This document shows, piece after piece, positions 19,133-22,374 of a stretch of 64,000 nucleotides of DNA. Position numbers and translations under genes: made by a program. The notes beneath the pieces were generated by a model. The model ran no database searches and had not been told where the DNA came from. It worked only from the letters and a program-made list of their open reading frames with translations. Origin of the DNA: Desulfonauticus sp. (GTDB taxonomy: Bacteria; Desulfobacterota; Desulfovibrionia; Desulfovibrionales; Desulfonatronovibrionaceae). The first letter of the stretch is position 1. Every line of letters begins with the position of its first letter. The stretch is from positions 62,001 through 126,000 of the forward strand of contig JAUZRP010000006.1 in NCBI GenBank assembly GCA_030950395.1, in the 5' to 3' direction.

Positions 19133-20593
19133 ATGAGAAGATTAGTTGTAAATCATATTGTAAAAATGCGTAGAGATATTTATCGAAAAATTGTAGAAGC
19201 GTACAAAAATAATACGTTAAAAAAAGAATTGCCCAAATTCTGGGCACACATAATAAGTGACGAAGAATTCATGGATAGAAGAAAATTCTTTTATGAAAGA
19301 GAAGTTATAAAAGAAAAGATAAAATTCGCTCTAGGATTAAACTATAAAAAAGTAAAAGATATGGAACTTTACGAAATAACTCAGTACTTAGACGAAATAT
19401 TAGAAGGAGCATCTGACCTTTTAGAAAAAGAAAATTTTATGGAAATAATAGAAATACTTTGTGCTGAGTGTCCTGGTGGAAGATATTACATAACAGAGCT
19501 TTGTCGAAACTGCCTTGCCCATCCATGTACCAGCGTATGCACTAAAGGAGGCATAAAAATAGTTCAGAATAGGGCTCAAATAGATTATTCTGAATGTATC
19601 AATTGTGGATTATGTGCTTCTGCCTGTCCTTACCATGCTATAACCAAATTGGAAAAACCCTGTACACTCGCCTGTTACTGTGAAGTTATTCACATAAACC
19701 AAAAAGGAAGAATGGAGTTAAGCAGTAAAGACTGTGCATCTTGTGGTGCCTGTTATCTAGCTTGTCCGTTTGGCGCTCTAGAAACATCCTCTATGATGCT
19801 TCAGGTGCTACACAGACTAAAACGAGAAAAGATGATAGCCATTTATGCGCCAGCAGCAATTACACAATTTAAAAGAAAGGCAAGTGTAGAGCAATTTATA
19901 GAAGCCTTAAAAATTCTTGGATTTGATGAAGTATTTGAAGTTGCTATTGGAGCAGATATGGTTGCCGAAGCAGAGGCACTGCATTTTCTTGAGCATGGGG
20001 GACTTATGCTCACCTCCTGTTGCCCATCTTACGTCAGATTGGTCAAACAGAGATGGCCAGAATTTGCCCAAAACATATCCCCCATTCCATCTCCTATGGT
20101 AATGTTGGCTCAAAAATTAAGAAAAGACTATCCTGAACACAAAATAGTTTTTATTGGACCATGCATAGCCAAAAAGAAAGAAGCCATTGAAAATAGTACG
20201 CCAGATTATGTTCTTACCTTTGAAGAAACCGCTATAATATTTGAGGTGTACGGGATAAACGTACCTTTACTTAAAGGTGAAAAGACAAAAGAGGCCACTC
20301 CTTATGCCTGGGGCTTTGCCACAACAGGCGGAGTAGGTGAAGCAGTAAGATACTACGTGAAAAAACACGCTGGAGATACAAAAGCTAATTCTCTAAAAAT
20401 ACTTTCAGCAAATGGTTTAAAAGAATGCGACAAATACTTAAAAGAAATAAAACGAGGCAAACTTGAAGTAGATATTCTTGAAGGAATGGGATGTGATGGC
20501 GGGTGTATAGCTGGACCAGGGGTTATGGTGGACCCAATTAGTTCAAAAGCCCTGTTAATGCGTGAAGTCGCAAAGATGAAGCAAAATGGCTAA
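19133..20593 (+). CDS. [FeFe] hydrogenase-like protein, group B type
   Basis: A 486-residue single-subunit protein. After a helical N-terminus come cysteine-rich segments (CAECPGG, CRNCLAHPCTSVC) and two ferredoxin clusters (CINCGLCASAC, CASCGACYLAC). The H-cluster domain has L1 TSCCPSY near residue 294, L2 GPCIAKKKEA near 343 and L3 EGMGCDGGCIAGPG near 452. The proton-relay cysteine and all four H-cluster cysteines are kept. L2 begins GPC rather than MPC and L3 has GC rather than AC, as I recall for group B enzymes. No HydE, HydF or HydG maturase is in the window. GAGAGG precedes the ATG. H2 evolution is likely but unproven. Confidence 0.85.
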   Translation: MRRLVVNHIVKMRRDIYRKIVEAYKNNTLKKELPKFWAHIISDEEFMDRRKFFYEREVIKEKIKFALGLNYKKVKDMELYEITQYLDEILEGASDLLEKENFMEIIEILCAECPGGRYYITELCRNCLAHPCTSVCTKGGIKIVQNRAQIDYSECINCGLCASACPYHAITKLEKPCTLACYCEVIHINQKGRMELSSKDCASCGACYLACPFGALETSSMMLQVLHRLKREKMIAIYAPAAITQFKRKASVEQFIEALKILGFDEVFEVAIGADMVAEAEALHFLEHGGLMLTSCCPSYVRLVKQRWPEFAQNISPIPSPMVMLAQKLRKDYPEHKIVFIGPCIAKKKEAIENSTPDYVLTFEETAIIFEVYGINVPLLKGEKTKEATPYAWGFATTGGVGEAVRYYVKKHAGDTKANSLKILSANGLKECDKYLKEIKRGKLEVDILEGMGCDGGCIAGPGVMVDPISSKALLMREVAKMKQNG

Positions 20594-20630: not shown

Positions 20631-20705
20631 TCAGGCTGGATAACTATTTGAAAACTACTTTTATGCGCCCAAAAATCCCCCTTCCATGCTAATTATCCAG
20701 CCTGA
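20631..20705. repeat. 13-bp perfect inverted repeat downstream of the hydrogenase-like gene
   Basis: TCAGGCTGGATAA (20631-20643) and TTATCCAGCCTGA (20693-20705) are exact reverse complements separated by 49 bases. There is no T-tract, so a simple terminator is unlikely. It lies 38 bases after the hydrogenase-like stop codon. It could be an mRNA 3'-end stem or a remnant element. Confidence 0.45.
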
Positions 20706-20784: not shown

Positions 20785-20812
20785 TTGACATTTTATTATG
20801 TTTTTAGATACT
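20785..20812 (+). promoter_or_regulatory. Probable sigma-70 promoter of the speD-speE leader
   Basis: A perfect TTGACA (20785-20790) is followed after 16 bases by GATACT (20807-20812), matching four of six -10 consensus bases. Transcription would begin near 20820, giving a leader of about 220 bases before speD. Confidence 0.55.
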
Positions 20813-20860
20813 TTCTACCTCTCTAGAGAGAAGGTGCCCCTTTCTTTATTTGAATTACGT

Positions 20861-20894
20861 ATCTGCCTATTTTTATCTGGCAGATAATTTTTTT
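20861..20894 (+). terminator. Intrinsic terminator/attenuator in the speD leader
   Basis: ATCTGCC (20861-20867) pairs with GGCAGAT (20879-20885) around an 11-base loop, followed by AA and nine T's. It stands between the proposed promoter and a short ORF plus speD, so it should act as an attenuator. TACGTAT just before the stem can pair with ATACGTA about 30 bases after it, which could form a competing structure. Confidence 0.6.
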
Positions 20895-20944
20895 TTGCAA
20901 AGTAAGAGGTATACGTACAACAAAATTTAAACTAAGAGGTGGTT

Positions 20945-21010
20945 ATGAGTAGTGATGACCCGTTAAAAGGCATTATTTACTTACCCAAAGAAAGTTTAGC
21001 TCCAACGTAG
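20945..21010 (+). CDS. Putative 21-residue leader peptide upstream of speD
   Basis: An ATG at 20945 follows a good ribosome site (AAGAGGTGG, about five bases away) and opens a 21-codon frame, MSSDDPLKGIIYLPKESLAPT, ending at TAG 21010. It ends 30 bases before the speD start, which has its own AGGAGG. Its place after an attenuator-like hairpin suggests a translated regulatory leader controlling polyamine synthesis. That function is inference; the codon content shows no obvious run of one amino acid. Confidence 0.5.
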   Translation: MSSDDPLKGIIYLPKESLAPT

Positions 21011-21040
21011 CGAAAAATTCAATATAAGGAGGATAGAGCA

Positions 21041-21454
21041 TTGAAAAACACAATCTGTGGTCTCCATCTTGTAGTAGAACTAAAAGGTTGTCCTTTTTCC
21101 ATCCTAAATGATGAGCAACTCATCAGGCAAGCCATCGAACAAGCTTCCCAACAATCCATGTCCACTTTATTAAATTTAGTAAGCTATAAATTTCATCCTA
21201 TAGGAGTTACTGCTTTGGGCCTTCTGGCAGAATCCCACATTTCCATTCATACCTGGCCAGAAATAGGCTATGCAGCAGTGGACATATTTACCTGTGGAGA
21301 ATGTTCCAATCCTTACAAGGCCTGTGATTTTCTAGCCAAATTTCTTAAAGCTGATAAAGTGGAAGTTACCACCTTACCCAGAGGAAGCAACGTAAACAAA
21401 GGAAATTTTCACCAATTAACTAAGGATTATGAACAATGTCAGGTAGCAAATTAA
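21041..21454 (+). CDS. speD: S-adenosylmethionine decarboxylase proenzyme
   Basis: A 137-residue prokaryotic class 1B AdoMet decarboxylase, normal length. It cleaves itself before a serine that becomes the pyruvoyl cofactor; here the site is LLAESHISIHTWPE, with Ser at about residue 65. The following YAAVDIFTCGE contains the conserved catalytic cysteine. It supplies decarboxylated AdoMet to SpeE, which overlaps by 19 bases. The start is TTG at 21041, fixed by a perfect AGGAGG eight bases upstream. A leader with terminator and short ORF precedes it. Confidence 0.96.
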   Translation: MKNTICGLHLVVELKGCPFSILNDEQLIRQAIEQASQQSMSTLLNLVSYKFHPIGVTALGLLAESHISIHTWPEIGYAAVDIFTCGECSNPYKACDFLAKFLKADKVEVTTLPRGSNVNKGNFHQLTKDYEQCQVAN

Positions 21455-22374
21455 AAAACTACTTTTCAGAGATCATAACTGGTGGAGATATTTTTTTACA
21501 CGCTGCAGAAGAAGTTCTTGAGTTAAAAAAGACCAAATATCAGGAATTAGCCCTTATCCAATCTCCAACTTTTGGCAAGACATTGCTCCTGGACAATATT
21601 TGCCAAATAAGTGAAGTCGATGAATTTATTTATCATGAATTACTCGTTCATACTCCTTGTATTTTTCATTCAAATCCTAAAAACGTTTTAATTCTTGGGG
21701 GTGGAGATGGTTGCGCCTTACGAGAAGCCCTACGCTGGAAGAGTGTAGAAAACGTTACTCTGGTAGATATAGACGAAGAAGTGGTAAATTATTCTAAAAC
21801 CTGGCTAACAGATTTAAATCAAAACTCTCTTAATCATCCAAAAGCCAGAATAATTATTGAAGATGCTTTTAATTTTATAAAAAATTCAGATCTAAAATGG
21901 GACATAATCATCTGTGATCTATCAGACCCTATAGAAAACAGTCCTGCTCTGGCTTTATTTACTAAAGAGTTTTTTGAAAGTTTAACCCAAATATCCCATC
22001 CCCAAACCATAATCAGTGTGCAATCTGGACCAGCTGCCCCACCTGATCACTTTTGTTTTACTAGAGTCGCCAATACCCTAAAACGAGTTTTTCCTTATTT
22101 TAAGGCTTGTTTGTGTTTTTGTCAGGCCTACATAACACCTCTGGCCTTTTCCATTGTTTCCAGCCAGCCTTTTAAAAAATTAAATGCTGGGGAAGTAGAA
22201 AACATTATCCAAAACAATCTAGAGGGAGATTTAAAATACTTAGATGGGGAAACTTTTTTGGCCAGTCAAAATCTGCCTAAATTTCTAAAACAAGCCCTAG
22301 AAAAAGAACAAGTCGTCTATACTTTAGACAATTTGCCTCAATGGTTTAACTCTGACCTTAATAAAAACGTATAA
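21436..22374 (+). CDS. speE: Polyamine aminopropyltransferase (spermidine synthase)
   Basis: A 312-residue enzyme that moves an aminopropyl group from decarboxylated AdoMet to putrescine or a related amine. Motifs: LLLDNICQISEVDEFIYHE in the substrate site, the AdoMet-binding ILGGGDGCALREAL, VDIDEEVV, and the active-site loop DLSDPIENSPALALFTKEFF. The usual loop reads SSDPxGPA, so this one is divergent and substrate preference could differ. It is translationally coupled to speD. Confidence 0.92.
   Translation: MSGSKLKNYFSEIITGGDIFLHAAEEVLELKKTKYQELALIQSPTFGKTLLLDNICQISEVDEFIYHELLVHTPCIFHSNPKNVLILGGGDGCALREALRWKSVENVTLVDIDEEVVNYSKTWLTDLNQNSLNHPKARIIIEDAFNFIKNSDLKWDIIICDLSDPIENSPALALFTKEFFESLTQISHPQTIISVQSGPAAPPDHFCFTRVANTLKRVFPYFKACLCFCQAYITPLAFSIVSSQPFKKLNAGEVENIIQNNLEGDLKYLDGETFLASQNLPKFLKQALEKEQVVYTLDNLPQWFNSDLNKNV

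Follow-up and report, generated by a model that had tools for sequence, protein, structure and literature searches.

The speD-speE operon of the window (the whole 64,000-nt stretch of Desulfonauticus DNA analysed here) is preceded by a short open reading frame with its own ribosome site, and comparison of three species indicates that the encoded peptide is itself under selection within the genus. We consider with good confidence that this ORF specifies a cis-regulatory leader peptide; with somewhat more reserve, we favour the reading that it is the leader peptide gene of speD-speE and controls the translation of speD in cis. As the peptide is kept in all three sequenced species of the genus, spermidine production is probably tuned via translation of this leader. 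That this would involve nascent-chain pausing with polyamine feedback is a distinctly more tentative proposal. An initial annotation of the region had proposed leader-peptide regulation of polyamine synthesis: its ORF does exist, has been retained in the genus under selection on the peptide and lies where it could govern speD translation, but its translation cannot run the terminator that lies ahead of it.

From 5' to 3', promoter-like boxes, a hairpin with nine T, the Shine-Dalgarno (SD) sequence of the leader, the 21-codon ORF and the SD of speD precede speD on the + strand (Table 1). The elements listed in the initial annotation, i.e. TTGACA, nine T's, an ORF with its own ribosome site, AGGAGG and a TTG-start speD, are all present. 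The gene identities that it gave are also supported: in a family-model search the speD product scores 132 bits against TIGR03330 (cut-off 75.65) and speE matches PF01564, its matches to TIGR00417 and PRK00811 falling under their curated cut-offs. Upstream of the operon, a [FeFe] hydrogenase gene ends at 20593; between this gene and the promoter boxes (20631-20705) there is a 16-bp inverted repeat, 94% complementary, with a 43-nt spacer and no T-run.

Table 1. Features of the speD-speE leader region in the window.
Feature	Position	Strand	Details
Promoter-like boxes	20785..20812	+	TTGACA (20785-20790), GATACT (20807-20812), 16-nt spacing
Alternative pairing around terminator	20849..20924	+	arms TTTGAATTACGTAT (20849-20862) / ATACGTACAACAAA (20911-20924), 79% complementary
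Intrinsic-terminator-like hairpin and T-run	20860..20896	+	hairpin 20860-20886, T-run 20888-20896
Shine-Dalgarno of leader ORF	20934..20939	+	AAGAGG, 5 nt ahead of ATG
Leader ORF	20945..21010	+	21 codons, 66 nt, ATG 20945 to TAG 21010, MSSDDPLKGIIYLPKESLAPT
Shine-Dalgarno of speD	21026..21032	+	AAGGAGG
speD, AdoMet decarboxylase	21041..21454	+	TTG start; TIGR03330 and PF02675
speE, spermidine synthase family	21436..22374	+	PF01564

Conservation of the leader peptide in the genus

The genus sample comprises the three species with speD: the window, G001 and G002. Each of them carries an SD-led ORF of 21 codons, MSSDDPLKGIIYLPKESLAPT, MSTDDPLIRVVYLPRESFAPT and MSSDEPLIKEKVLVPESMAPT, whose stop lies 30, 33 and 31 nt before speD respectively, and in each species another gene lies upstream of the operon (hydrogenase, ABC-permease-like and lipoprotein-like, the last two named by eye). 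Between the window and G001, the closest pair, the leader ORF differs 3, 3 and 9 times at the first, second and third codon positions, i.e. mostly at the third, with a dN/dS of 0.12. When the same substitutions are placed at random, the permutation p for an equal peptide similarity is 0.0068 for this pair and 0.0007 and 0.00035 for the other two, the three species pairs not being mutually independent. The C-terminal ESxAPT-stop is fixed in the three species while the codons for A, P, T and the stop vary; a search of 21 genomes for the ESxAPT pattern gave hits in this genus alone, each genome having a single site, which in every case precedes speD. A conserved peptide with synonymous changes, which the initial annotation had named as the observation that would support its proposal, is thus found. 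Of the conservation of hairpin and ORF in relatives, which it had proposed as a check, that of the ORF holds throughout the genus, and that of the hairpin in position but not in sequence.

In the window itself, 0.25% of shuffles of the region yield a leader ORF with an SD, such a length and such a stop position, and none of the other 26 genes with at least 130 nt of upstream space has a comparable one. The 21-residue peptide matches no family, and its carriers are limited to the three species. Own ribosome site and peptide conservation, two features of regulatory leader peptides (uORFs), are both found here, the latter not in the genus g22; the conserved residues close to the stop (ESxAPT) are a feature of polyamine-sensing arrest peptides. 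Selection at the peptide level would also suit a small protein with its own function, merely co-transcribed with speDE. However, it would have just 21 residues and no family, sister genera hold different peptides in the same slot and the stop is always near the speD ribosome site, and we regard this alternative as very improbable.

Amino-acid attenuation was rejected, since no single codon, whether for Met, Arg or another residue, forms a run in the three peptides. A known riboswitch or other Rfam element was likewise rejected: with the Rfam covariance models the leaders of the window and of its relatives gave nothing above the gathering score, and the matches in the window leader were at chance level. 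Two side observations concern the leader ribosome-site region: AAA(G/C)TAAGAGGT occurs there in two copies 30 nt apart (20899-20940), the first without a start codon, and the predicted fold would allow each copy to pair with the leader's 5' end (about 20815-20822).

Promoter and terminator ahead of the leader

The TTGACA promoter of the initial annotation calls for some caution. The boxes are present, but promoter-like sites are about as numerous in the region as expected by chance (17 observed vs 17.3 expected), and it is only the recurrence of TTGACA ahead of the leader in both sister species, G001 and G002, that lends the promoter weight. It is from these boxes that we infer the 5' UTR of the operon.

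The terminator hairpin announced at 20861-20885 exists with its nine T's, its ends being rather at 20860 and 20886. It has 8 bp, an 11-nt loop and a predicted energy of -10.7 kcal/mol, and is followed by A and nine T; none of 60 shuffles equalled its terminator score, and the 84-nt 5' part of the leader region has a folding z of -3.0. In G001, G057 and G039, too, the promoter and the leader ORF are separated by a hairpin and U-tract, with unlike sequences, and G002 has a weak counterpart: the terminator recurs by position, not by sequence, in the genus of the window and in a second family (f2). In g49, whose leader is short, no terminator hairpin was seen by eye.

Hairpin and ORF had been joined in a single attenuation mechanism. 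This part of the earlier proposal falls: the terminator precedes the ORF, and its outcome is settled by the time transcription reaches the ORF, so that leader translation cannot decide termination and the two constitute separate layers. Classical attenuation of the trp, speFL or tna kind by the leader ORF is rejected on the same ground. Neither a second terminator with a T-run between leader and speD, nor a credible ORF with SD upstream of the terminator, was found in the window. The TACGTAT/ATACGTA pairing does exist, but the antiterminator role of the ATACGTA segment is rejected: the 3' arm lies beyond the T-run and is transcribed too late for antitermination, and the pairing was not found in the sister species. 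The terminator could be either a fixed damper or under the control of some factor not recognised here.

For the terminator part only, it is conceivable, if rather doubtful, that the hairpin simply ends transcription of the hydrogenase gene upstream and does not attenuate speD. No antiterminator partner is evident upstream of it, and from the end of the hydrogenase gene to 20860 there is no other hairpin with a T-run, both of which would agree with such a role. On the other hand, the hairpin sits past the promoter boxes, and family f2 too has a hairpin and U-tract between promoter and leader. Moreover the upstream gene of G002 ends in its own terminator, so that the second hairpin, which lies past the promoter, is superfluous for that gene.

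Possible mechanism and known systems

When a ribosome ends the leader, 36 nt separate its P-site from the start codon of speD, and it adjoins the 30S site on AAGGAGG; across the order, the distance from leader stop to speD initiation, P-site to P-site, is about 21-39 nt. In the mechanism that we propose as most likely, speD translation is set by ribosome pausing or termination-reinitiation beside the speD ribosome site: a slow release at the conserved C-terminus (E-S-x-A-P-T-stop) would leave a stalled ribosome that hinders speD initiation, while a fast release would let speD be opened or reinitiated. The conserved peptide end argues for such a nascent-chain role at termination; the 36-nt gap counts against it, being at the edge of what a steric block requires. 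The likely sense would be a product feedback in which spermidine slows release and lowers SpeD, the translation, the effect and the ligand all being putative. A separate intrinsic terminator before the leader would pass only part of the transcripts.

Alternatively the ORF might merely bring terminating ribosomes to speD, keep the mRNA open or shield it from Rho, in which case neither the peptide sequence nor polyamines would matter. This is rather unlikely in our estimation: the stop position is indeed kept while the leader peptides differ widely between genera, but within the genus the amino acids, chiefly those at the C-terminal end, are more conserved than the nucleotides alone would account for.

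Polyamine feedback is perhaps the natural guess by analogy with the eukaryotic AdoMet decarboxylase (AMD1/SAMDC) mRNA of animals and plants, whose MAGDIS-type uORF is a textbook polyamine feedback loop. Both systems have a short uORF before the same enzymatic step, with a conserved C-terminus and a control, proposed in the case of the window, at uORF termination. They differ in that there is no sequence similarity, that the enzyme of the window is of the bacterial class TIGR03330 and the host another one, and that the eukaryotic uORF is reached by scanning, whereas the window leader has SD initiation and a putative polyamine response. We advance only as a speculation that polyamines feed back on this bacterial operon through nascent-peptide arrest at the uORF stop; it is an equally speculative extension that such an arrest uORF is the convergent counterpart of AMD1/SAMDC, with peptides changing fast across one order.

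Two leaders of Escherichia coli are precedents on other polyamine genes. The first, speFL, as cited in PMC7815308, is a leader peptide with ornithine-dependent arrest on the polyamine gene speF. It resembles the window leader in belonging to a polyamine synthesis operon and in pausing before the stop codon (proposed in the window), and differs in controlling speF, in acting on Rho and RNA structure 3' of the leader ORF, and in its unrelated peptide. The second, mdtU, is the uORF of mdtJI and a polyamine-gene precedent (PMC7815308), with a spermidine-related operon, a conserved C-terminus and premature termination in the 5' UTR as common points. Unlike the window leader, it has 34 codons and a stop 106 nt before mdtJ, its termination is Rho-dependent, and it is spermidine-induced and serves an exporter instead of a synthesis gene (PMC7815308).

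In open-licence papers we found no report of a leader peptide on bacterial speD, nor a description of leader-level feedback on spermidine synthesis at this gene, an absence which is weak evidence but agrees with the initial annotation, where the regulation was called undescribed. Leader peptides on polyamine operons are known as a kind, and on this enzyme in bacteria they appear to be new. If regulatory, the speD leader ORF would be an independent invention and a small arrest-peptide candidate open to direct test.

Leaders across the order and beyond

In the order speD is rare: within the class, 20 of 297 genomes have it. The other genera with a leader have ORFs of 21-25 codons that follow an SD, encode different peptides and stop 15-33 nt before speD. 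Six species of g22 share M[CF][LS]V...ARR[CF]FG[HR], which is 21 codons long and ends 24-27 nt ahead of speD; the peptide is MDVDPYSRSPLGGVFDPGGEPRH in g49 and, with a GTG start, MDVDSPSPRRVSAGPIFKGVILPRT in g35, while those of family f2 (genus g10) are MECLKIIFGQGVSCMGLTFNFY and MEYLSDYKRLGVYWICLTFNFY, at a shorter gap of 15 nt before an ATG-start speD. The strict ORF rule is satisfied in g1, g22, g35 and g49, with shuffle rates per locus of 0-2.5% (about 1%), to be taken as a guide only because the rule was set after the first cases had been seen. G001 and g22 have a ribosome-site context in common, CCAAGGGG(G)TTTT(T)ATG, which suggests that the leader ORF is old and that its peptide has since diverged. 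Varied peptides in one slot let one ask which feature is the sensor; since they are unrelated between genera and g22 fails the coding test, a peptide sensor common to the genera is only conjectural.

A leader ORF of this kind is missing from eight further speD loci in the order (L088, L095, L098-L100, L105, L107 and L108). Outside the order, any ORF was found in 8 of 64 speD genes under looser rules, none similar; a wider spread was rejected, speD genes of cyanobacteria, alphaproteobacteria and other Desulfobacterota having no comparable ORF.

The g22 leader brings in another explanation, namely that what is conserved is the RNA, folded into a riboswitch-like or SD-sequestering structure, with the ORF being incidental. 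In g22 the nucleotides are strongly conserved, the leader SD pairs with an upstream C-run and the coding test fails, as this would predict. However, no conserved helix is supported across the species of the window's genus, no Rfam family matches and the substitutions there are of the coding type, so that for the window we hold this explanation improbable and keep to the leader peptide. The g22 element may work otherwise: the speD 5' leader (L090:1238-1485, +, with equivalents in L091, L092, L093, L096 and L103) is GC-rich, highly conserved and structured, its predicted fold pairs the SD (GGGGG) with the C-run and contains a hairpin within the ORF with a few compensatory changes, and it has no match in Rfam. 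It is possibly an unrecognised cis-regulatory RNA.

Further loci show particular arrangements. L140 (G057) has, some 85 nt ahead of speD, an f2-type leader ORF that is interrupted by a frameshift at a run of nine A, its 3' part GLTFNFY being kept; assembly error, slippage and decay are indistinguishable here. At L094 (G217), about 100 nt upstream, a leader ORF starting MPSDPATLNLAPRTFF includes a run of six T and overruns the speD start in another frame. Finally, among the speD loci L049-L087, mostly from Rhodobacterales, many alphaproteobacterial frames have an upstream in-frame extension with a conserved LFQLGxGLETGAxEED.
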